Both the position numbers and the translations under genes were made by a program. Source: Dongia sedimenti (GTDB lineage Bacteria; Pseudomonadota; Alphaproteobacteria; Dongiales; Dongiaceae). From it: a stretch of 64,000 bases of DNA. The stretch spans positions 248,001-312,000 of the forward strand of contig JAUYVI010000006.1 of NCBI GenBank assembly GCA_030715195.1, given 5' to 3'. Shown one piece after another: positions 54,206 to 64,000 of the stretch. The notes beneath the pieces were generated by a model. That model was not told the DNA's origin, ran no database searches, and worked only from the letters and a program-made list of their open reading frames with translations. Positions within the stretch are counted from its first letter, which is position 1; every line of letters starts with the position of its first letter.

Positions 54206-54724
54206 TTATTGCGCCGCCTGCGTCTTCTTCCGCTCCGGCAATTTCCAGTCCGGCCGGATGAAGTGGCAGGTATAGCCGTTGGGGATACGCTCCAGGTAAT
54301 CCTGGTGCTCCGGCTCGGCCTCCCAGAACGGGCCGGCGGGTGCCACTTCGGTCACCACCTTGCCGGGCCACAGGCCCGATGCATCGACATCGGCGATGGT
54401 CTCCTCGGCGACATGCTTCTGTTCCGGGCTGGTGTAATAGATCGCCGACCGGTAGCTCATGCCCCGGTCATTGCCCTGGCGGTTGAGCGTGGTCGGGTCG
54501 TGGATCTGGAAGAAGAACTCCAGCAGCCGCCGATAGGTGATCTTCGTCGGATCGAAGGCGATCTCGATCGCCTCGGCGTGGGTTCCGTGGTTGCGATAGG
54601 TGGCATTGGGCACATCGCCGCCGGTGTAGCCGACCCGCGTCGCGATCACGCCGTCGTAACGGCGAATCAGATCCTGCATGCCCCAGAAGCAGCCACCGGC
54701 CAGAACCGCGCGTTCCTGTGTCAT
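54206..54724 (-). CDS. msrA: peptide-methionine (S)-S-oxide reductase MsrA, cytosolic
   Basis: 172 residues from ATG 54724, which overlaps the msrB stop by 4 bases. The catalytic motif is [14 protein letters not shown] near residue 10, followed by [40 protein letters not shown] and [14 protein letters not shown]. It reduces the S epimer of methionine sulfoxide in proteins. There is no signal peptide, so it acts in the cytosol. It is the second gene of a cytosolic msrB-msrA operon; a second, exported pair lies at 56792-58061. Confidence 0.96.
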
Positions 54725-55170
54725 CGGACTTCCTCCACCTGGTTGAGATAGGCCCCGTAGCCCTCGGCTTCCATCCGGTCGCGATGGACGAACCTGAGCG
54801 AAGCCGAATTGATGCAATAGCGCAAGCCGCCGCGATCCCGCGGCCCGTCGTCGAACACATGGCCGAGATGGCTGTCGCCGAATTTAGAGCGCACCTCGAC
54901 CCGCCGCATGCCATGGCTGGTATCGGTCAGTTCCTGCACATTCTCATGCTCGATCGGCTTGGTGAAGCTCGGCCAGCCGCAATGGGAATCGAATTTGTCC
55001 GCGGAGGCGAACAGCGGCTCGCCCGAGACGATATCCACATAGATCCCGGGTTCTTTGTTGTGGAGCAGCGGGCCGGTGCCGGGGCGCTCGGTTCCGCTCT
55101 CCTGGGTCACGCGGTACTGCTCGGGCGTCAATTTCGCGACGGCTTCGGCCGTCTTCCGATATTCGGGCAT
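54721..55170 (-). CDS. msrB: peptide-methionine (R)-S-oxide reductase MsrB, cytosolic, without zinc cysteines
   Basis: 149 residues. The catalytic Cys lies in [17 protein letters not shown], and [13 protein letters not shown] and [16 protein letters not shown] are standard. The two CxxC zinc pairs found in most MsrB proteins are absent: the first place reads [18 protein letters not shown] and the second [12 protein letters not shown]. An extra Cys in DSHCGWPSF is at the site of the resolving Cys in type-1 enzymes. It reduces methionine R-sulfoxide. The ribosome site is CTGGAGCGACCC. Confidence 0.95.
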
Positions 55171-55496
55171 GGGTCGCTCCAGCGATTTGGGCTTTGGCGC
55201 CTATATATGGCCACGCCCCGCAGGGGGCGCAAGAACCTCGGGCAGTACGTTCCGCCGAGAACGAAGGTTACACCCTCAGCCGCGCACGCGGCGGCAGCTC
55301 TCCGTTCGACGACGCCATGGAAGTGTCGATACAATTCAACCTAGCCCGGTCCGCATGCAACCGGTAGCATCGCGACGAGATGATCGGGTTGCTTGGCGGC
55401 GGAAACCAACCGGGCGACGCCGACGGCTCCGGCCTGAATCGGAAGACGCCGCTCTGAATCGCCGATCGGCAAGACTCCAACCATGGAGTGACGTGT
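55171..55496. promoter_or_regulatory. divergent promoter region of msrBA and cbpA-cbpM
   Basis: 326 bases with no gene. On the minus strand, CTATATATGG near 55201-55210 is the most promoter-like element, about 35 bp before the msrB start. Next to it, CGCCCC/GGGGCG (55214-55229) can form a small leader hairpin. The right end holds the GGAG (55485-55488) that fixes the cbpA TTG start. I see no heat-shock consensus with confidence. Confidence 0.35.
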
Positions 55497-56414
55497 TTGG
55501 ACGATCCCTACAAGACGCTTGGCATCGCACGCGATGCCGGTGCGGAGGAGATCCGCAAGGCGTATCGCAAGCTCGCGAAGCAATTCCATCCCGACCTCAA
55601 CCCCGGCAATGCCAAGGCGGAGGAGCGATTCAAGGCGGTCGCCGCCGCCAACGCGCTGCTGTCCGATCCGGTTGCCCGCGGCAAATTCGATCGCGGCGAG
55701 ATCGACGCCGAAGGCCATGAGCGCCACGCCCAAAACAGCGCGCGCGGGCCTTCCTATCGCGAATATGCCGAGGCCGGGCCCGGCCATCGCTATACCTGGC
55801 ACGAAGACGATCTCAGCGACCTGTTCGGTTCGGTGTTCGGGGAAGGCGACGGGTCCGGTGCCAAGCGGCCGCGGCGCGGGCACAACGAGCATTATGCATT
55901 GGCGGTCGAGTTTCTCGACGCGGTCAATGGCGCCATGCCGCGGCTGACCCTGCCCGATGGGCGGGTGCTGGATGTGAAGATCCCGCCCGGAACCGGCGAT
56001 GGCCAGACCTTGCGCCTGCGCGGGCAGGGTGGTCGCGGCATCAATGGCGGGCCCAACGGCGACGCCCTCATCGATATCCATGTGAAACCGCACCCGTTCT
56101 TCACCCGCGACGGCCAGGACATCCATCTGAACCTGCCGGTGAGCGTGTCGGAGGCCGTGCTGGGTGGCCCGGTCGAAGTGCCGACGCCACGGGGCAGGGT
56201 GCGGATGCAGATTCCGAAGCATTCCGACACCGGCACCAAACTGCGCCTCCGCGGCCGCGGCGTGGCCGCGCAGGGCAAGCACGCGGCCGGCGATCTCTAC
56301 GCCACGTTGCGCGTGGCGGTCGGCCAGCCGGACGCGGCGCTCGAAGAGTTCCTGCGCGGCTGGAAGCCGGATCCTGCTCCAGATCCGCGGCGCACGATGG
56401 AGACCGGCACATGA
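55497..56414 (+). CDS. cbpA: DnaJ-type co-chaperone CbpA
   Basis: 305 residues from TTG 55497, chosen because GGAG stands 8 bases before it and DPYKTLGIARDAGAEEIRKA then begins at once; GTG 55488 is the alternative. The J domain occupies residues 3-67 with the HPD tripeptide in KQFHPDLNPGN. There is no zinc-finger region. Two C-terminal substrate-binding domains follow (ALAVEFLDAVNGAMPRLTLP, LRLRGQGGRGINGGPNGDAL and IHLNLPVSVSEAVLGGPVEV), as in CbpA. It recruits DnaK. It overlaps cbpM by 4 bases. Confidence 0.94.
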   Translation: MDDPYKTLGIARDAGAEEIRKAYRKLAKQFHPDLNPGNAKAEERFKAVAAANALLSDPVARGKFDRGEIDAEGHERHAQNSARGPSYREYAEAGPGHRYTWHEDDLSDLFGSVFGEGDGSGAKRPRRGHNEHYALAVEFLDAVNGAMPRLTLPDGRVLDVKIPPGTGDGQTLRLRGQGGRGINGGPNGDALIDIHVKPHPFFTRDGQDIHLNLPVSVSEAVLGGPVEVPTPRGRVRMQIPKHSDTGTKLRLRGRGVAAQGKHAAGDLYATLRVAVGQPDAALEEFLRGWKPDPAPDPRRTMETGT

Positions 56415-56764
56415 GCGAAGAGCAGATGACGATCACCATCGACGCCCTCATCACCCAGGTTTCCGGTCTGCAGCGCGAAGACCTGGAGCACTGGATCGCC
56501 AATCAATGGGTACGGCCGGAAGATGCGGGGAGCGGCGGCGACTACGTGTTCCATGCGATCGACGTGGCCCGGGTGCGGCTGATCCAGGAACTGCACCACG
56601 ATCTGCAGATCAACGAGGATGCGCTGCCGGTCGTGCTCTCGCTGCTCGACCAGCTCTACGACCAGCGCCGCCGCCTGCGCGCGCTCAACGACGCGATCGC
56701 CGCGGTCGCGCCCGAAGATGTGCGTCGCGATCTCGCGCGGCATCTCGCCGAACACGAGAAATGA
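56411..56764 (+). CDS. cbpM: CbpA modulator CbpM
   Basis: 117 residues, ATG overlapping the cbpA stop. It has a MerR-like start (LQREDLEHWIANQWVRPEDA, residues 20-39), VARVRLIQELHHDLQINEDA and VVLSLLDQLYDQRRRLRALN, matching CbpM, which binds and inhibits the CbpA J domain. Its overlap with cbpA supports the call and equal translation of partner and inhibitor. Confidence 0.92.
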   Translation: MSEEQMTITIDALITQVSGLQREDLEHWIANQWVRPEDAGSGGDYVFHAIDVARVRLIQELHHDLQINEDALPVVLSLLDQLYDQRRRLRALNDAIAAVAPEDVRRDLARHLAEHEK

Positions 56765-56791
56765 ACGCGTGCGCTTTGCGCATTCCGCACC

Positions 56792-57544
56792 TCAGTTCAC
56801 CGCCGCGCCCGCCATCACCAGCACCGGCTCCGCCCGCCAGCGCTCCGGGTAGAGCTTTTCCAGGTTCCGCACCTTCGGCAGGTCGTTGATGGCGATATAG
56901 GGCTGGTCCGGGTGCAGCGTCAGGTAATCCTGGTGATAGTCCTCGGCCGGATAGAACGCCTTGCCCGGCTCGATCGTGGTGACGATGTCGTTGCTGAAGA
57001 CCTTCGCTGCCTGCAGCTGGTCGATATAGGCCTTGGCGATCCTGGCCTGCTCTTCCGAGGTCGGGAATACGGTCGAGCGGTATTGCGGCCCCATGTCCGG
57101 ACCCTGGTAGTTGAGCTGGGTCGGATCATGCGCCACCGAGAAATAGATCTGCAGCAGCTGCCCGTAAGTGACTTTGTGCGGGTCGAAGGTGACCTGCACC
57201 GATTCCGCGTGGCCGGTCTCGCCGCTGCCGACCATCTCGTAATGCGCCGTATCGGCCGCGCCGCCGGCATAGCCGGAGACCGCCTTGGTGACGCCTTCGA
57301 CATGCTGGAACACGCCCTGCACGCCCCAGAAGCAGCCGCCGGCGAATATCGCGGTCTCCGTGTTCATCGGCGACGTGGCCGCCGTCTCGTCGAGCACCGG
57401 AGCGGGGATCACCGTTGCATCCTCCGCGGCCGAGGGCGTCACCCGCAAGCCGAACGCCGCCGCGCCGATGGTCCCGGCGACCAGCAGGGCGGCGCCGAGC
57501 CGCGGCAGGCTCCAGCCGGTCTTGATCATGCGGTTCTTCATCAT
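56792..57544 (-). CDS. msrA: exported peptide-methionine (S)-S-oxide reductase MsrA
   Basis: 250 residues. The first 45 residues carry an uncleaved or Sec-type signal (LGAALLVAGTIGAAAFGLRV) and a Pro-rich linker. The catalytic domain has AIFAGGCFWGVQGVFQHVEG, GYAGGAADTAHYEMVGSGET and GPQYRSTVFPTSEEQARIAK. Compared with the cytosolic copy at 54206 it is a different subtype, with a longer C-terminal tail (DLPKVRNLEKLYPERWR). Localisation suggests repair of periplasmic proteins. It is 22 bp downstream of the exported msrB. Confidence 0.93.
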   Translation of the reverse strand: MMKNRMIKTGWSLPRLGAALLVAGTIGAAAFGLRVTPSAAEDATVIPAPVLDETAATSPMNTETAIFAGGCFWGVQGVFQHVEGVTKAVSGYAGGAADTAHYEMVGSGETGHAESVQVTFDPHKVTYGQLLQIYFSVAHDPTQLNYQGPDMGPQYRSTVFPTSEEQARIAKAYIDQLQAAKVFSNDIVTTIEPGKAFYPAEDYHQDYLTLHPDQPYIAINDLPKVRNLEKLYPERWRAEPVLVMAGAAVN

Positions 57545-57566
57545 AGGCTCCTTTCAGGCGATACGT

Positions 57567-58061
57567 TCAGGCGGCGGTCGGTCGGAAGGTGAGCGCGACG
57601 CCGTTCATGCAGTAGCGCAATCCGGTCGGCGGCGGACCGTCGTCGAACACATGGCCGAGATGGCCGCCGCACTGGCTGCAATGGACGGCGGTGCGCACCA
57701 TCATGAAGCTGGTGTCGCTGACCTCGCCCACCGCCTTGTCGAGCGGTTTCCAGAAGCTCGGCCAGCCGGTCCCGCTGTCGAACTTGGTCTCCGAGGCAAA
57801 GAGGTCGAAGCCGCAGCCGGCACAGCCGAAAACGCCCGTGCGGTGCTCCTCGAGCAGCGGGCTGGTGAACGGCCGCTCGGTGCCCTCCTGCCGCAGCACG
57901 GCATATTGCTCCGCGGTCAGCCGCGCCCGCCATTCCGCGTCGCTGTGCGTCACTGGGAAGACCTCGGCGGCCCGCGGGGCCTCGGGTCGCAGGAAGCGGT
58001 GCGCGGCCAGGGCGGCCACGCCGAAAACGCCGCCCGTCAGTAACCATCGCCGGCTGATCAT
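57567..58061 (-). CDS. msrB: exported zinc-type MsrB (Tat signal)
   Basis: 164 residues from ATG 58061, preceded by CGGAGAAACCA; an ATG 14 codons earlier is possible. [20 protein letters not shown] is a twin-arginine signal. The zinc pairs are [13 protein letters not shown] and [12 protein letters not shown], and the catalytic Cys is in [13 protein letters not shown]. This differs from the zinc-less cytosolic copy at 54721. A folded zinc enzyme fits Tat export. It forms an operon with the exported msrA. Confidence 0.94.
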
Positions 58062-58204
58062 TGGTTTCTCCGAAACGGTTGGTGTCGTGGACACTTCGTT
58101 CATGCGACCCGTTTGGTTTCGCGGTGCTCACGCCAATGTGTACGCGCCCAGCCGGGGTTCTTGGCAAACTCCTTCGCTTCACAAAAGCTTGAGGAGTGCC
58201 GAGG

Positions 58205-59065
58205 ATGAACCAGACCATCATCGACCTCTATGACCGCTTCACCCATGGTCAGATCAGCCGGCGCCGGTTTCTCGACCGGCTGGCGGTGCTGGCGGGCGGC
58301 AGTGCCGCGGCGACCGCCCTCCTGCCGCTGCTGCAGAACAACTACGCCCTGGCCGAGACCGTCCCGGAAAGCGACAGCCGGATCAAGACCGAGGCGGCGA
58401 CCATTGCCGGCATCAGCGCCTACGTCGCCAAGCCGGCCCAAGGGACGTCAGGGGGCGGCGACAAATTCCCGGCCGTGATCGTCATCCACGAGAATCGCGG
58501 CCTCAACCCGCATATCAAGGATGTCACCCGCCGCTTCGCCACCGCAGGCTATCTCGCGGTCGGCGTGGACATGCTGACCCCGCTCGGCGGCACGCCCGCC
58601 GACGAAGACAAGGCGCGCGAGATGTTCAGCCAGGTGAAGCCGGACGACGTCGCCGCGCAGCTGACCGCGGTGGTCGCCGCGGTCCGTGCCCGTCCCGATT
58701 CCAACGGCAAGGTCGGCGCGGTCGGCTTCTGCTGGGGCGGCGGCGCCGTGAACAATCTCGCGGTCGCCGACCCGACGCTCGATGCCGGCGTCGCTTATTA
58801 CGGCCGCCAGCCAGATGCCGCCAAGGTCGCGTCGATCAAGGCGCCGCTGCTGCTGCATTACGGCGGTCTCGACACCAACATCAACCCCGGCATTCCCGCC
58901 TATGAGGCGGCGCTGAAGGCCGGCGGCAAGGACTACAAGATTTATGTCTACGACGGCGCCAACCACGCCTTCAACAACGACACCAACGCCGCCCGCTACG
59001 ACAAGCCAGCCGCCGACCTCGCCTGGGGCCGGACGCTGGACTTCCTCAAGCAGCACTTGGCCTAG
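58205..59065 (+). CDS. dienelactone hydrolase family protein, Tat-exported
   Basis: 286 residues from ATG 58205. SRRRFLDRLAVLAGGSAAAT (residues 17-36) is a twin-arginine signal. The hydrolase part has the triad: Cys in VGAVGFCWGGGAVNN, Asp in LLLHYGGLDTNINPGI and His in YDGANHAFNNDT. HENRGLNPHIKDVTRRFATA is the oxyanion region. It belongs to the YghX-like Tat-exported group. Its function in the periplasm is unknown. It lies just downstream of the divergent exported msrBA pair. Confidence 0.9.
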   Translation: MNQTIIDLYDRFTHGQISRRRFLDRLAVLAGGSAAATALLPLLQNNYALAETVPESDSRIKTEAATIAGISAYVAKPAQGTSGGGDKFPAVIVIHENRGLNPHIKDVTRRFATAGYLAVGVDMLTPLGGTPADEDKAREMFSQVKPDDVAAQLTAVVAAVRARPDSNGKVGAVGFCWGGGAVNNLAVADPTLDAGVAYYGRQPDAAKVASIKAPLLLHYGGLDTNINPGIPAYEAALKAGGKDYKIYVYDGANHAFNNDTNAARYDKPAADLAWGRTLDFLKQHLA

Positions 59066-59095: not shown

Positions 59096-60073
59096 TCAGC
59101 GCGGGACTGGTGCGCGCCGATCGACCAGGCCGTGTTCCTGAAGCTCGGCCCACAGCTTGCGCGGAATGTCGATTTTGCTCATTCCCGCACTGTCGGCCAG
59201 CTCGGTCGGGTTCCGCGGGCCGATGAGGACCGCGGTGATGGCGGGATGGTGCAGGGGAAACTGAACGGCCGCGGCCTTCAGCGGAACGCCATGGCGCGCG
59301 CAAGCCGCCGCCAGTTCCTGCGCCCGCGCGACCAGACCTGCATCCGCGTCCTCGTAGTTGAACTTGGCGTGCGCGGAAGGGTTGGCGAGCAGGCCGCTGT
59401 TGTAGACGCCGCCGGCGAACACCGAGATGCGCTTCTCCAGGCAAAGCGGCAGGAACTCATCGAGCGCGCGCTGCTCGAGGAGGGTGTAGCGGCCGGCCAG
59501 CAGGAAACAGTCGAACCGGCCCTCGCGCGCGAAGCGCGTCAGCATCTCCGACTGGTTCATGCCGGCACCCACGGCCTTGATGACCTTTTCGCCGCGCAGG
59601 CGATCGAGCGCCTTGTAGGCGCCCGCCAGCGCTTCCGGATAGTGATTGTCGGGATCGTGGATGTGCAGGATGTCGATCCGGTCCAGCGACAGCCGCTGCA
59701 GGCTCTCCTCGAACGACCGCATCACGCCGTCATAGGAGAAGTCGAACACCGGCCGTTCCGGCGGCGTGCCCTTGTAATACGCATCCTCACCTTCATCCCT
59801 CGGCGGAATCCGCAGCAGCCGACCTACCTTGGTTGCGATGACGAAGTCCGCGCGCGGCTTCCCGCGCAGGAATTCGCCCAGGCGGCGCTCTGACAGTCCG
59901 TTCCCGTATTGCGGCGCCGTATCGAAGAAGCGGATGCCGTCGTCCCAGGCCTGCTGCATGGTGGCGAAGGCGTCCTCGTCCGCGACCGGGCTGTAGAGGC
60001 CGCCGAGCGGCGCGGTGCCGAGACCGAACCGCGTCACTTCCAGATCCGTCGTGCCGACCGTCCTGCGTTCCAT
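59096..60073 (-). CDS. aldo/keto reductase (D-threo-aldose 1-dehydrogenase-like)
   Basis: 325 residues from ATG 60073, with AGGAGC seven bases upstream. The tetrad is readable: Asp and Tyr in IRFFDTAPQYGNGLSERRLG, Lys in FVIATKVGRLLRIP and His in IDILHIHDPDNHYPE. The NADP-binding C-terminal part is VLIGPRNPTELADSAG. The sequence resembles the L-fucose/D-threo-aldose 1-dehydrogenase branch of the family. It is divergent from the DegT-type gene with a 101 bp AT-rich gap. I infer oxidation of a sugar or cyclitol in the pathway of this locus. Confidence 0.9.
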   Translation of the reverse strand: MERRTVGTTDLEVTRFGLGTAPLGGLYSPVADEDAFATMQQAWDDGIRFFDTAPQYGNGLSERRLGEFLRGKPRADFVIATKVGRLLRIPPRDEGEDAYYKGTPPERPVFDFSYDGVMRSFEESLQRLSLDRIDILHIHDPDNHYPEALAGAYKALDRLRGEKVIKAVGAGMNQSEMLTRFAREGRFDCFLLAGRYTLLEQRALDEFLPLCLEKRISVFAGGVYNSGLLANPSAHAKFNYEDADAGLVARAQELAAACARHGVPLKAAAVQFPLHHPAITAVLIGPRNPTELADSAGMSKIDIPRKLWAELQEHGLVDRRAPVPR

Positions 60074-60174
60074 CCCGTGCTCCTGCATCCCATCGCGGCG
60101 GCAGAAATACATTGCACTATAAGAAAAATCCATGATAATCGGAAAATTACGCCGCAAGTCATTGCGGCTGATGC

Positions 60175-61449
60175 ATGACGCTGCGAACGGAGTGGGGCTT
60201 GGACAAGCTTGCGGTAGACGGCGGAGCGCCGGTGTTTTCGGCGCCCTACCCCTCGATCAGGAACGCCGCGGGGCGGACCATCGGCGCCGAGGAGATGGCG
60301 GCGGTGGCCGACGTGATGAACTCGGGCTGCCTCGCCTATATCTACGGCAAGTATGTCGGGCAGTTCGAGGAAGATTTCGCCCGGCTGATCGGCGTCAAGA
60401 CCGCGGTCGCCACCAGCAGCGGCACCGCGGCGCTGCACACCGCACTCATCTATCTCAATCCGGAGCCGGGTGATGAGGTGATCGTCTCGCCGCTGACCGA
60501 CATGGGCAGCGTCATCCCGGTGGTCTCGCAGCTGGCGGTGCCGGTCTTCGTGGACGTGGATCCGTTCGACCAGAACATCGATCCGAAGGCGATCGAGGCG
60601 GCGATCACGCCGCGCACCAAGGCGATCATCGTCACCCATCTGTTCGGCGCGCCGGCCGACATGGACGCGATCATGGCGATCGCGCGCAAGCACGACATCT
60701 TCGTGATCGAGGATTGCGCCCAGGCGCATCTCGCGCGCTACAAGGGCCGCACCACCGGGGCCATCGGCGACATGGCCTGCTACAGCTTCCAGCAATCCAA
60801 GCACATCACCACCGGCGACGGCGGAATGGTCGTCACCAATCAGGACGGCAAGTTCGGCCGCGCGCTGCGGCTGTGCATGGACAAGGGCTGGCCGCGCGAC
60901 CGGCCCGGACGGGACCACCTGTTCCTGGCGCCGAACTATCACATGACCGAGCTGCAGGCGGCGGTCGGCGTCGCGCAGCTCCGCAAGCTGCCCGATGTGG
61001 TCGAGACGCGCCGCCGGGTCGCCCAATTGCTCGATGCGGAAATCAACCAGATGCCGTCGGTGCGGCTCCTCGGCGTGCGTCCGAATTGCGAAGAGGTGCG
61101 CTGGGCCTATGCCTTCACCCTCGATCTCGCAAGGCTCACCGTTCCCGGCGCGAAGGTCGTCGAGGCTTTGCGGGCCGAAGGGATCGATTGCTTCCTTGGC
61201 TATCCCGGCCAAGTTCCGCTCTACCGCTATCCGATGCTGAAGGACCGCCTGACCTTCGGCAGCTCGGGCTGGCCGTTCACCTTGCCCGGAGTGCTGACGC
61301 AGCAGGATTTCGGCGCGTCACTTTGCCCGATCGCGGAAGCCGCCTGTCTGAGCACCGTCGTCCTGTGGTGGACCGAGCGGATCACGGAGGCGGATGCCAG
61401 GCGAATCGGCGCGGCGATCCGCAAGGTGATCGGCAACTACGAGGCCTGA
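60175..61449 (+). CDS. DegT/DnrJ/EryC1-family PLP aminotransferase
   Basis: 424 residues from ATG 60175; a TTG at 60199 has a better ribosome site (CGGAGTGGGGC). LAVDGGAPVFSAPYPSIRN is a typical N-terminus. SSGTAALHTALIYLNPEPGD binds the cofactor phosphate, D180 lies in FVIEDCAQAHLARYKG, and the Schiff-base Lys 209 is in CYSFQQSKHITTGDGGM. DegT enzymes transfer amino groups to keto-sugars or inososes. Cell-wall or antibiotic genes are lacking; instead it is flanked by dehydrogenases, a regulator and a binding protein, so a catabolic or salvage role on an aminocyclitol or amino sugar is possible. Confidence 0.9.
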   Translation: MTLRTEWGLDKLAVDGGAPVFSAPYPSIRNAAGRTIGAEEMAAVADVMNSGCLAYIYGKYVGQFEEDFARLIGVKTAVATSSGTAALHTALIYLNPEPGDEVIVSPLTDMGSVIPVVSQLAVPVFVDVDPFDQNIDPKAIEAAITPRTKAIIVTHLFGAPADMDAIMAIARKHDIFVIEDCAQAHLARYKGRTTGAIGDMACYSFQQSKHITTGDGGMVVTNQDGKFGRALRLCMDKGWPRDRPGRDHLFLAPNYHMTELQAAVGVAQLRKLPDVVETRRRVAQLLDAEINQMPSVRLLGVRPNCEEVRWAYAFTLDLARLTVPGAKVVEALRAEGIDCFLGYPGQVPLYRYPMLKDRLTFGSSGWPFTLPGVLTQQDFGASLCPIAEAACLSTVVLWWTERITEADARRIGAAIRKVIGNYEA

Positions 61450-61450
61450 C

Positions 61451-61468
61451 CGTTTCCGATCGGAAACG
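61451..61468. promoter_or_regulatory. perfect 18-bp palindrome before the XRE-cupin gene
   Basis: CGTTTCCGATCGGAAACG is fully self-complementary. It lies 1 bp after the aminotransferase stop and 74 bp before the regulator ATG. The form TTTCC-N4-GGAAA recurs in modified form before the binding-protein gene at 63227, so it is a strong candidate operator for the XRE-cupin regulator. A T-tract is absent, so it is unlikely to be a terminator. Confidence 0.75.
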
Positions 61469-61542
61469 TTTGTCTTGCCGAATCCGGCCGACACCGGGAA
61501 GATGGACCACAACCCTTGTCTGAGCAGAGAAAGCCGAAATCC

Positions 61543-62289
61543 ATGGCGAGCAGTGCATCCAAGCGGGCGAGCGCAAGCTGGGTCGGCAATCACCCCCAGA
61601 TCGGCAGCCTGCTGCGGGACCGGCGCGCCTATCACAACTGGACGCTGACCGACGTCTCGCAGATGACGGGGATCTCGGTCTCGGCCCTGTCGAAGATCGA
61701 GAACGACGCGATGTCGCCGACCTATTCGACCATCCTGCAGCTGTGCGAAGGGCTGAAGATCGAGATCGCCGACCTGCTCAATCCGTCGGTGGGCGGCACC
61801 CAGGCCAGCATCATGGGCCGCCGGAGCATCAGCCGCCAGCACGAAGGCAGCTCGCTCGCCGACGACAACTACGCCTACACCTATCTCTGCTCCGACGTGG
61901 CGCACAAGCGGATCATCCCCATGGTCGTGACCGTACATGCCCGCTCGCTCGACGACATCGGCGAGCTGTGGTCGCATGTCGGCGAGGAATACATCTACGT
62001 CCTCTCCGGCCGCCTGACCTTGCTCACGTCGCTCTACGAGCCGACCGAGCTCATGCCCGGCGATAGCGTCTACATCGACAGCACGATGCCGCACGCCTAC
62101 CTCTCCTCCGGCGACGCGGACGCGCAGATCCTGGTGAACTGCTCCAGCGCGACCCCGAACCTCGCCCAGACCCTGCGCGAGATTCTGAAGGAGCGCCTGA
62201 CCCGGGGCGGTGCCGTCGCGGCAGGAAGTGAGGCAGCGGACGTCGCCAAGACCGCGCGGACACCGCGCGCGAAGAAACGCGGCGCCTGA
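61543..62289 (+). CDS. XRE-family regulator with C-terminal cupin domain
   Basis: 248 residues from ATG 61543; TTG 61516 is an alternative. The helix-turn-helix spans residues about 20-75 (GSLLRDRRAYHNWTLTDVSQ, then MTGISVSALSKIENDAMSPT). The cupin at residues about 130-200 has ELWSHVGEEYIYVLSGRLTL and LMPGDSVYIDSTMPHAYLSS. This HTH-plus-cupin layout is found in regulators of amine, amino-acid and sugar use, with the ligand bound in the cupin. It lies between the aminotransferase and SDR genes. The palindrome just upstream suggests autoregulation. Confidence 0.93.
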   Translation: MASSASKRASASWVGNHPQIGSLLRDRRAYHNWTLTDVSQMTGISVSALSKIENDAMSPTYSTILQLCEGLKIEIADLLNPSVGGTQASIMGRRSISRQHEGSSLADDNYAYTYLCSDVAHKRIIPMVVTVHARSLDDIGELWSHVGEEYIYVLSGRLTLLTSLYEPTELMPGDSVYIDSTMPHAYLSSGDADAQILVNCSSATPNLAQTLREILKERLTRGGAVAAGSEAADVAKTARTPRAKKRGA

Positions 62290-62317
62290 GGCCGAAGAAC
62301 ACCCGGGAAGCGTATCA

Positions 62318-63022
62318 GTGCTGCAAAAACAGGCTGTCGTCATCGGCGGGACCAGCGGAATCGGCCGGGCCATCGCGGACCGTCTGCTGGATTCCGGATT
62401 CGAAGTCGTGATCACCGGAGTGAGCGGCAAGGGCGGAGACGGCCTCAAAGCCGGCATGCGCGCGGCGCGGCTCGACGTCTCCGATCTCGCCGCGATCGAC
62501 ACGTTCTTCGCCACGCTGGAGCGCGCCGACGTGCTGGTCAATTGCGCCGGCACGAACCGACGCCGCGGCCAGGAGTTCGATCCGGCGGTGTTCGAATACA
62601 TCGTCCGGGTCAACCTGCTGGGGACGATGCGGGCCTGCTATGCGGCCTATCCGCTGCTGAAGCGCCAGGGCGGCTCGATCGTCAACATCGCCTCGATGTT
62701 CAGCACCTTCGGCTCGGGCAGCATTCCCGCCTATGCGTCGAGCAAGGCGGCGGTGGTGGCGCTCACCAAGTCGCTGGCGATCGCCTGGGCGGCCGACAAC
62801 ATCCGCGTCAACGCGATCGCGCCCGGTTTCATCGAGACCAAGCTGACCGCCGACGTCCTCGAGGACGGCGGGCGCGTGGCCGAGATCGTGGGCCGCACCC
62901 CGATGCGGCGCTGGGGCAAGCCGGACGATCTCAGCGGCACCGCGAACTTTCTCTGCTCGGCGGACGCCGCCTTCATCACCGGCGCGACCATGACCGTGGA
63001 CGGCGGCTACTCGATCGCCTGA
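62318..63022 (+). CDS. short-chain dehydrogenase/reductase
   Basis: 234 residues from GTG 62318, with GGGAAG upstream. It is a classical SDR: VVIGGTSGIGRAIADRLLDS (cofactor motif GxxxGxG), DVLVNCAGTN, the catalytic Ser in SIVNIASMFSTFGSGS, Tyr and Lys in AYASSKAAVVALTKS, and RVNAIAPGFIETKLTADVLE. The acidic stretch after strand 2 is not obvious, leaving NAD or NADP preference open. It probably oxidises a hydroxyl of the substrate brought in by the transporter encoded next. Confidence 0.92.
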   Translation: MLQKQAVVIGGTSGIGRAIADRLLDSGFEVVITGVSGKGGDGLKAGMRAARLDVSDLAAIDTFFATLERADVLVNCAGTNRRRGQEFDPAVFEYIVRVNLLGTMRACYAAYPLLKRQGGSIVNIASMFSTFGSGSIPAYASSKAAVVALTKSLAIAWAADNIRVNAIAPGFIETKLTADVLEDGGRVAEIVGRTPMRRWGKPDDLSGTANFLCSADAAFITGATMTVDGGYSIA

Positions 63023-63046
63023 TCCGGGCCGGGGCCGCGCGCCCGC

Positions 63047-63122
63047 TTCCTTTCGGAAAATCCGGTGAATTGCGTTTGACAGAAAATATGTCCGATGCAA
63101 TATTTATTTTCCGATAGTAAAA
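63047..63122 (+). promoter_or_regulatory. promoter and two operator-like sites of the binding-protein gene
   Basis: A near-consensus promoter is present: TTGACA (63076-63081), a 17-base spacer, and AATATT (63099-63104). Upstream is TTCC-TTTC-GGAA (63047-63058) and directly downstream of the -10 box is TTTTCC-GATA-GTAAAA (63107-63122), an imperfect palindrome of the same TTTCC-N4-GGAAA form as at 61451. A site over the transcription start is what a repressor would use. Confidence 0.65.
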
Positions 63123-63226
63123 ATCTTCACACTGTCGGTCCGCGCGCTCCGTATCGCGGCGCGTGGCTCACGGCAGGAAGAACCGGGTCCGGCCTCGACC
63201 GGCCCGCTCAACAGGGAGTGTGCAAC

Positions 63227-64000
63227 ATGAAGAACAGATTGGCGTCCTTGATCGCCTCCGCCGCGCTGACCGCGGTGGTGGCGTTTTCCGCAAGCGCCCG
63301 CGCGGAGGAACTGCGCATCCTCACGTGGGAGGGCTATGCGGACGATCAGTGGGTGAAGGAGTTCGAGAAGCAGACCGGCGCGACCGTCAAGATCTCCTAT
63401 ACGGGCAGCGTGGACGAGATTTTCGCCAAGATGGAAGGCTCCAAGGGCGCGGACTTCGACGTGGTCGCGATCGAGACCTCTTCCTACAAGCGGCTCTATG
63501 AGCAGAAGCTGATCCAGCCGCTGGATCTGGCGAAGCTGCCGAACTACAAGAATCTCAGCGACGTCTTCCAGCATATCGACTCCATCCAGTTCGACGGCAA
63601 GCCCTATGCGGCGCCTTACGCCTGGGGCTCGCTGCCGCTGATCTATGACAAGAAGGCGTTCCCGACGCCGCCCGACAGCTGGGCCGTGCTTTGGGACCCG
63701 CAATATGCCGGTCATGTCCTGGCGATGGACGACGCCAACAACGAGATCTCGACCGCCGCCATGGTTCTGGGCTTCAAGAATCCCTTCAACCTCAGCGATG
63801 CGGAGTTCGCCGCGGTCAAGAAGAAGCTGCTGGAGCAGAAGGCCAATGTGCTCAGCTACTATGCCGGCTTCGACGACGGCATCAGCATCTTCGCGCAGAA
63901 CGACGTCTCGCTGATGTTCTCCATGGGCGAGCCGCAGGTCGGCATGCTGCAGAAGAAGGGCGTCGATGCGGCGATGACCATCCCGAAGGAAGGCGCCATC
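63227..64000 (+). CDS. ABC substrate-binding protein, spermidine/putrescine type, C-terminus off window
   Basis: 258 residues visible. ATG 63227 has CAGGGAG upstream. A Sec signal (LIASAALTAVVAFSASARA) is followed by EELRILTWEGYADDQWVKEF, the family's first strand, then KGADFDVVAIETSSYKRLYE and YAAPYAWGSLPLIYDKKAFP. The rest of the gene and presumably its ATPase and permeases lie beyond the edge. With the aminotransferase, two dehydrogenases and the XRE-cupin regulator it forms an uptake-and-processing locus. It is the third binding protein of this type in the window. Confidence 0.9.
   Translation, partial: MKNRLASLIASAALTAVVAFSASARAEELRILTWEGYADDQWVKEFEKQTGATVKISYTGSVDEIFAKMEGSKGADFDVVAIETSSYKRLYEQKLIQPLDLAKLPNYKNLSDVFQHIDSIQFDGKPYAAPYAWGSLPLIYDKKAFPTPPDSWAVLWDPQYAGHVLAMDDANNEISTAAMVLGFKNPFNLSDAEFAAVKKKLLEQKANVLSYYAGFDDGISIFAQNDVSLMFSMGEPQVGMLQKKGVDAAMTIPKEGAI

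Follow-up and report, generated by a model that had tools for sequence, protein, structure and literature searches.

Closest described systems and the extent of the locus

Aminotransferases of the DegT family such as Fic25, the 2-deoxy-scyllo-inosose aminotransferases and ArnB are biosynthetic enzymes. The DegT/DnrJ/EryC1/StrS aminotransferase gene at positions 60175–61449 (plus strand) of a 64,000-nt stretch of the 6.13-Mb genome of Dongia sedimenti (contig JAUYVI010000006.1:248,001–312,000; the whole stretch is here called the window) encodes a protein with the same fold and pyridoxal phosphate (PLP) lysine, at about 28–34% identity. Unlike those enzymes, it sits among uptake and degradation genes. 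We put at roughly one half the probability that the operon to which it belongs serves the uptake and first breakdown of a basic amino sugar, in all likelihood one with five carbons. To our knowledge, little is charted of how amino sugars are degraded beyond the common 2-amino hexoses. An earlier note, made from the sequence of the window, knew of no named pathway with such a gene set, and likewise we found no description of an amino-pentose pathway in the literature searched, whose scope excluded most subscription journals.

The other systems to compare are the non-phosphorylative "Route II" pentose pathways. According to the work on Paraburkholderia (Watanabe et al., 2019; PMC6336799), the UxaA/GarD superfamily, whose substrates include D-arabinonate, D-altronate, L-fuconate and L-galactonate, holds a biochemically shown D-arabinonate dehydratase, and in Paraburkholderia a gene of this kind is clustered with that of a COG0667 aldo-keto reductase (AKR) that oxidises D-arabinose and L-fucose. 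With the Route II D-arabinose pathway of P. mimosarum cluster 4, the larger clusters around close relatives of the DegT gene in other genomes would share the COG0667 AKR aldose 1-dehydrogenase, the UxaA/GarD pentonate dehydratase, a 2-keto-3-deoxypentonate (KDP) dehydratase and α-ketoglutarate as end product. They differ in the added DegT, short-chain dehydrogenase/reductase (SDR) or AroE-like dehydrogenase and PotD-type importer, and in a KDP dehydratase of the DHDPS (L-specific) type; the window locus is without both dehydratases. In the L-arabinose Route II of Azospirillum brasilense (PDB 3fkk, 7c0c), the KDP dehydratase belongs, by score and key residues, to the same subfamily as the relatives' DHDPS protein, but the clusters have a UxaA/GarD rather than an IlvD/EDD pentonate dehydratase, and they contain amine-handling genes.

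Five reading frames between 59096 and 64000 are free of internal stops, the fifth being open at the window edge, and each product exceeds the Pfam cut-off for its family in a profile search of the window proteins. The earlier note was therefore right that five intact genes, the last cut by the edge, are present. It was also right about their catalytic residues: Lys209 in DegT, Y-x3-K (as YASSK) in the SDR, and D/Y/K/H in the AKR, where we read them in FFDTAPQYG, ATKVG and HIHDP and presume their catalytic assignment. The five genes are not the whole unit, however. Sequence past 64000, which the note had asked for, shows that the same contig (region L009) carries the operon on to window-equivalent 68121, with the end of the binding protein gene (window-equivalent 64258), a PotA-type ATPase, PotB- and PotC-type permeases, an RbsD/FucU protein and a DUF1349 protein. 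The unit thus consists of a divergent AKR gene and a nine-gene rightward run, DegT-XRE/cupin-SDR-binding protein-ATPase-permease-permease-FucU-DUF1349. The genes beyond the edge are joined by 4-base overlaps or a single 24-base gap (at assumed starts). That the last four genes of the window are read together, as the note had it, fits the 28 bases between the XRE-cupin and SDR genes, but the 66 or 93 bases, depending on the start used, between DegT and XRE-cupin and the about 204 bases between the SDR and binding protein genes fit it less well.

The DegT aminotransferase and its conserved neighbours

The DegT protein passes the Pfam PF01041 cut-off (300 vs. 19.8 bits), and Lys209 (SFQQSKH-TTGDGG), its PLP lysine, is invariant in 12 aligned sequences. 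The top match of its predicted fold (predicted local distance difference test score, pLDDT, 87.9) is Fic25 (E 6.8e-35, 34% identity), which has been solved with an adduct of N2-acetyl-DADH; DADH is a linear hydroxy acid with the amine next to the terminal CH2OH. We take this match only as a hint, because the sugar transaminase 7b0m, perosamine synthase and ArnB score closely behind. The protein stays below the cut-offs of the sugar-nucleotide biosynthetic equivalogs (TIGR04181, 211/420 bits; PseC, 199/423; ArnB, 179/631; among the best 25 of 40 NCBIfam families). We predict that it deaminates a linear amino-aldonate, i.e., that it runs catabolically, and the analogy with Fic25 and DADH would favour C4 of a pentonate as the position of the amine. 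A family known from biosynthesis would then be turned to degradation.

Eighteen loci were compared: the window locus, L012 to L023, four plasmid loci and G446 (L009 to L126 and G446 are our own names for loci and genomes). DegT is present in all by construction, and the loci are not 18 independent cases, since several are closely related to one another (four Pseudomonas, two Azospirillum). DegT, AKR, PotD-type importer, FucU and DUF1349 occur together in 13 of the 18, window included, so that lack of conservation in other genomes, named in the note as grounds for refuting its reading, is not what we found. Taken singly, the PotD-type binding protein was present in 14/18 loci and AKR, FucU and DUF1349 in 13/18 each (the stretch examined of L016 stops short of where an upstream AKR gene would lie, and L021 is truncated by a contig end). 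A lactonase-family protein was found in 12/18 (the L022 copy at 35% identity), a UxaA/GarD-family dehydratase and an AroE-like protein in 15/18 each, a DHDPS-family protein in 13/18 (no gene for it within the stretch examined of L015 and L017), and a class IV aminotransferase in 6/18. The full cluster, as found on Rhizobium plasmids, adds genes for lactonase, altronate-dehydratase-family and DHDPS-family proteins, a "shikimate dehydrogenase" and an aldehyde dehydrogenase (ALDH).

Of the additional proteins, the DHDPS-family one is the most informative. In one study, the L-specific enzymes investigated are annotated to the DHDPS family and the D-specific ones to the FAH family (PMC7374468), and in another, Lys171 of L-KDP dehydratase is the Schiff-base lysine and Gln143 replaces the tyrosine of aldolases (PMC9795676). 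The L095 protein scores 367.6 bits (E 4.5e-109) to the L-2-keto-3-deoxyarabonate dehydratase 3fkk and 91.5 to the next different protein, and its alignment keeps both Lys171 and Gln143. The relatives' protein is thus clearly of the L-2-keto-3-deoxypentonate dehydratase type, as judged from alignment. The family-level annotation would also suit a pathway for a hexose-based amino sugar or an amino uronate, given that UxaA/GarD members act on hexonates and hexarates; the UxaA/GarD protein would then be a dehydratase of galactarate or altronate type, and the DHDPS protein would act as an aldolase or as KdgD. The 368 bits of the L095 protein to L-KDP dehydratase, the low scores of the L012 protein (53 bits vs. 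a KdgD cut-off of 374, and 94 vs. a DapA cut-off of 206) and galactarate dehydratase scores at about half the cut-off make this rather unlikely. The low KdgD score also led us to discard a glucarate/galactarate route. Kanosamine or another 3-amino hexose, our first idea, was dropped once the KDP dehydratase appeared.

Shikimate dehydrogenases carry S-x-S serines, and Lys81 and Asp118 have catalytic roles. The AroE-like proteins of the relatives have HVKAP at the S-x-S position and keep Lys81 and Asp118; without the usual shikimate-binding serines, they represent a potential new activity. Their gene is missing from the window locus, L021 and L022, and genome-wide searches yielded best identities of 38, 31 and 37%, respectively, hence no close copy. 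Where the other loci have the AroE-like gene, an SDR gene adjoins DegT in the window and in Rhodomicrobium L022. The window SDR (62318–63022, plus strand; adh_short_C2, 181 bits on the longer frame from 62210) is 46% identical to that of L022. On sequence grounds, it is a possible stand-in for the AroE-like enzyme and is predicted to reduce the keto acid product of DegT. As a separate observation, L096 (19481–20770) and L097 (18518–19800) carry a second AroE-like gene and, behind it, fragments resembling DHDPS that have no gene entry of their own; the arrangement resembles a decayed second copy of the pair.

The gene content of the Azospirillum and Chelativorans loci separates two modules. These loci keep DegT, the AroE-like protein, both dehydratases and ALDH, their importer is of the amino-acid type, and the stretch examined showed neither AKR nor FucU nor lactonase. 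This content fits import of an already oxidised amino acid, and would link DegT with the acid and the AKR with the sugar. We infer that these bacteria take up the oxidised amino acid, whereas in the others the amino sugar itself is imported and then oxidised. Azospirillum, which is listed in the Rhodospirillales, the group across which the note had proposed to look for conservation, carries only the second module (DegT, AroE-like, dehydratases and ALDH).

Proposed pathway and competing explanations

Because of the likenesses of the DHDPS-type, UxaA/GarD, AKR, lactonase and mutarotase proteins, the relatives' larger cluster reads, at the level of sequence, as a Route II pentose pathway to which a module for amine removal is added. 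FucU, lactonase, UxaA/GarD and L-KDP dehydratase as neighbours in the relatives point to a reducing pentose rather than to a polyol or an aminocyclitol. Thus, of the reading in the earlier note, the catabolic uptake locus and the amino sugar class are supported, whereas polyols and aminocyclitols fit less well.

The AKR (59096–60088, minus strand, start at 60088 or 60073; PF00248, 153 bits), a predicted NAD(P)-dependent aldose 1-dehydrogenase, is 63–69% identical to the AKRs near the same DegT in other genomes and 46% identical to that of the L-fucose-type cluster of its own genome. Among solved structures, its closest matches are L-galactose dehydrogenases (E 2.2e-31). By sequence it is more like the aldose dehydrogenases that oxidise C1 than like an enzyme forming a ketone, so the oxidation of the substrate to a ketone assumed in the note would not be its reaction. 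The FucU-like protein of the operon passes the Pfam RbsD_FucU cut-off (113.9 vs. 25 bits) and is nearest to L-fucose mutarotase.

Gene content, conservation and enzyme families were computed; the substrate, the direction of DegT, the position of the amine and the stereochemistry, the order of steps and the use of unlinked genes for the dehydratase steps in the window genome are inferred from them. The PotD-type importer would bring in a cationic amino sugar, of which the FucU-like mutarotase would supply the right anomer, and the AKR would oxidise C1 to give a lactone (or lactam), to be opened in the relatives to the amino-pentonate by the lactonase. DegT would then transfer the amine to a keto acid acceptor such as α-ketoglutarate. 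An extra dehydrogenase would be needed at this stage, to reduce the resulting ketone ahead of the 2,3-dehydration. The candidates are the AroE-like enzyme in the relatives and the SDR in the window, either of which would yield the plain pentonate. This acid would be dehydrated by the UxaA/GarD type in the relatives, then by L-KDP dehydratase, and finally oxidised to α-ketoglutarate, with unlinked genes serving the dehydratase steps in the window genome. The gene set in this way proposes an enzyme for most steps and a class of substrate.

A more specific version, in which the substrate is a 4-amino-4-deoxy-pentose or its pyrrolidine iminosugar (e.g., an arabinitol-derived plant iminosugar), is tentative and rather unlikely. 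It would be the first catabolic route for such a compound: DegT would deaminate the open-chain acid, and the configuration at C4 would be set by two unrelated reductases. The AroE-like enzyme would deliver an L-pentonate to the DHDPS-type L-KDP dehydratase, and the window SDR would deliver a D-pentonate to a D-KDP dehydratase of the FAH type, whose gene would lie elsewhere in the genome. L-Ara4N was set aside as a less likely substrate, its C2/C3 configuration being different from that of the UxaA/GarD substrates.

The window operon has no lactonase, acid-sugar dehydratase or KDP dehydratase gene, and genes elsewhere in the genome may cover these steps. An unlinked UxaA/GarD homologue on another contig (L094) is 59% identical to the copy of the Pseudomonas cluster, and a genomic ALDH is 68% identical to the ALDH of Azospirillum that resembles α-ketoglutaric semialdehyde dehydrogenase (KGSADH). 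A pentose locus (L011; G000:C20:700000–718000) encodes an L-arabinonate dehydratase just above the cut-off (884 vs. 882 bits), AraD1/GguC above cut-off and an XylB-like SDR below it (335/400 bits). A second PotD-type importer, 44–54% identical to that of the window, adjoins these genes and seems tied to pentose use. The L-fucose-type cluster (L010, pathway assigned by eye) holds, besides its AKR, a protein resembling 2,4-didehydro-3-deoxy-L-rhamnonate hydrolase (448/500 bits). We discarded the L094 homologue as the missing step, and give it little weight, because all four congeners tested, each without a DegT match, also carry a UxaA/GarD homologue.

This distribution of the UxaA/GarD gene is one of several points that weigh against an amino-pentose operon. 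No orthologue of the lactonase (best 35%), the DHDPS-type dehydratase (best 31%) or the AroE-like protein (best 38%) was found genome-wide, and no window enzyme attains an NCBIfam equivalog cut-off. The UxaA/GarD proteins reach 378–386 of 731 bits, about half the galactarate dehydratase cut-off, and the lactonase, nearest to L-fucono-1,5-lactonase (235/400), the KGSADH-like ALDH (550/770) and the FucU-like protein (PRK15420, 89.6/141) are likewise below cut-off. The fold search does not discriminate between Fic25 and aminotransferases of sugar nucleotides, ArnB among them. The 46% identity between the SDRs of the window and L022 does little to establish orthology, a further SDR of the window genome also reaching 46% over part of its length, and the XRE-cupin gene, present in 11/18 loci, was not found in the other seven.

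The catabolism of an aminocyclitol (an inosamine, rhizopine-like), in which DegT would reverse the inosose aminotransferase reaction, draws on the near full-length match of DegT to the 2-deoxy-scyllo-inosose aminotransferase 5w70 (residues 10–419), on the rhizobial carriers and on the AroE-like enzyme of the relatives, which we take to come from a ring-acting family. A mutarotase, a C1-oxidising AKR and a lactonase require a reducing sugar, however, and KDP dehydratase serves open-chain acids. Moreover, no inositol catabolism genes are named in the tables of the four annotated plasmid loci (the PLSDB tables are incomplete). We therefore consider an aminocyclitol distinctly unlikely.

A plain D-arabinose/L-fucose-type oxidation locus, with DegT and the SDR separate, perhaps biosynthetic, and linked by chance, appears just as improbable. 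AKR, FucU, lactonase and UxaA/GarD would suit the use of D-arabinose or L-fucose, going by the Paraburkholderia work (PMC6336799), and the genome holds a separate L-fucose-type cluster. Chance linkage sits badly with the AroE-like and UxaA/GarD genes, which accompany DegT in 15/18 loci, three of them without an AKR in the stretch examined. The importer is of the amine-binding PotD type, and no sugar-nucleotide genes were noticed nearby.

The importer has the four-gene architecture of the PotABCD polyamine importer. Its binding protein, of which the window holds the N-terminal part (63227–64000, plus strand; SBP_bac_8, 92 bits; complete in L009:7228–8259), keeps several pocket Trp, Tyr and Asp positions of PotD, whose roles and residue numbers we presume, and by the same presumed numbering does not keep the equivalents of Trp229 and Glu171. 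Polyamine uptake and use (PotFGHI/PuuR-like) is very improbable: the importer and regulator families fit and the NCBIfam matches include the PotD, PotF, PotA, PotB and PuuR models, but all are below cut-off (PotD 73/582 and PotF 65/636, on the partial window protein; PotA 349/482; PotB 148/348), and the mutarotase and aldose dehydrogenase would be left unexplained. The DUF1349 protein (L009:11535–12122), a predicted β-sandwich (pLDDT 87), gave no enzyme clue in a fold search, the matches being yeast 3o12 (42%) and 3mep, both proteins of unknown function, and part of the GH43 β-xylosidases.

Distribution, regulation and flanking genes

The trait is rare and scattered. A DegT scan of genome contigs gave 546 relatives, of which the twelve closest (L012 to L023) are 57–61% identical and, among the best 80 of the 546 loci, the others at most 45%; eight loci of the wider clade at 40–45% (Paenibacillus and others), viewed by eye, yielded nothing firm. 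At E 1e-60, a match was present in 1/96 relatives, the window's own genome, and in 0/6 other members of the genus, and at E 1e-90 again in that genome only, among 385 of the class and 397 of the phylum (these samples overlap, and up to four candidates were scored per listed genome). In the genus of L023, 3/148 genomes have a match at E 1e-100. The set is thus conserved between loci, but not among close kin.

Rhizobia, Pseudomonas and Rhodomicrobium contain the cluster here and there. Plasmids of Rhizobium and Azospirillum carry some of the copies (nine plasmid records, four examined in detail), so root-associated bacteria may be able to pass the trait on. In a DegT tree, 15 AroE-type proteins group together (support 94/98, just under the starred level of the tool), and the proteins of the window, Woeseiaceae and Rhodomicrobium fall outside; the pairing of window and Woeseiaceae joins long branches and may be false. 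On three Rhizobium plasmids, a set of hydantoinase/oxoprolinase A-B, SDR, sugar-type ABC importer and LacI genes is linked to the DegT cluster, on differing sides of it, and the hydantoinase genes are also present in G446 (L095 18423–27897, L096 1057–10542, L097 1055–10535, L126 1–3000). This suggests a functional tie, perhaps in lactam opening.

The XRE-cupin protein (61516–62289, plus strand, alternative start ATG 61543; HTH_3, 40 bits; Cupin_2, 41 bits) is 51–60% identical to the regulators in the relatives' loci and is likely the local regulator; at 35 bits vs. a cut-off of 211, we do not name it PuuR. The divergent promoter region of about 90 bases between the AKR and DegT genes (60089–60174) contains TTTTCCGAT (minus strand, near 60137), a sequence that occurs at only one other place in the window, 63107, upstream of the binding protein gene. 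A perfect 18-base palindrome, CGTTTCCGATCGGAAACG (61451–61468), upstream of the regulator gene, is a candidate operator; it is also listed as a terminator-like stem, of which four were found vs. 4.0 expected. The core TTTCCGAT is common to the palindrome and both other intergenic sites, and from sequence the TTTTCCGAT and CGTTTCCGATCGGAAACG sites may be operators. The TTTCCGAT sites were not seen in the relatives' promoter stretches inspected, where AKR promoters share AATTTC/GAAAATT half-sites instead (by eye). A promoter-like TTGACA-17-AATATT precedes the importer genes (63076–63104, plus strand), a weak site of which one was found vs. 1.1 expected by chance.

Adjoining the AKR gene, 58196–59065 encodes a YghX/dienelactone-hydrolase-family protein (305 bits to YghX vs. 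a cut-off of 460), with no match in the relatives' loci searched. Farther off, at 54206–58103, two MsrA-MsrB pairs were recognised by eye around a CbpA-like J-domain protein (55488–56414) and its CbpM-like partner (56411–56764).

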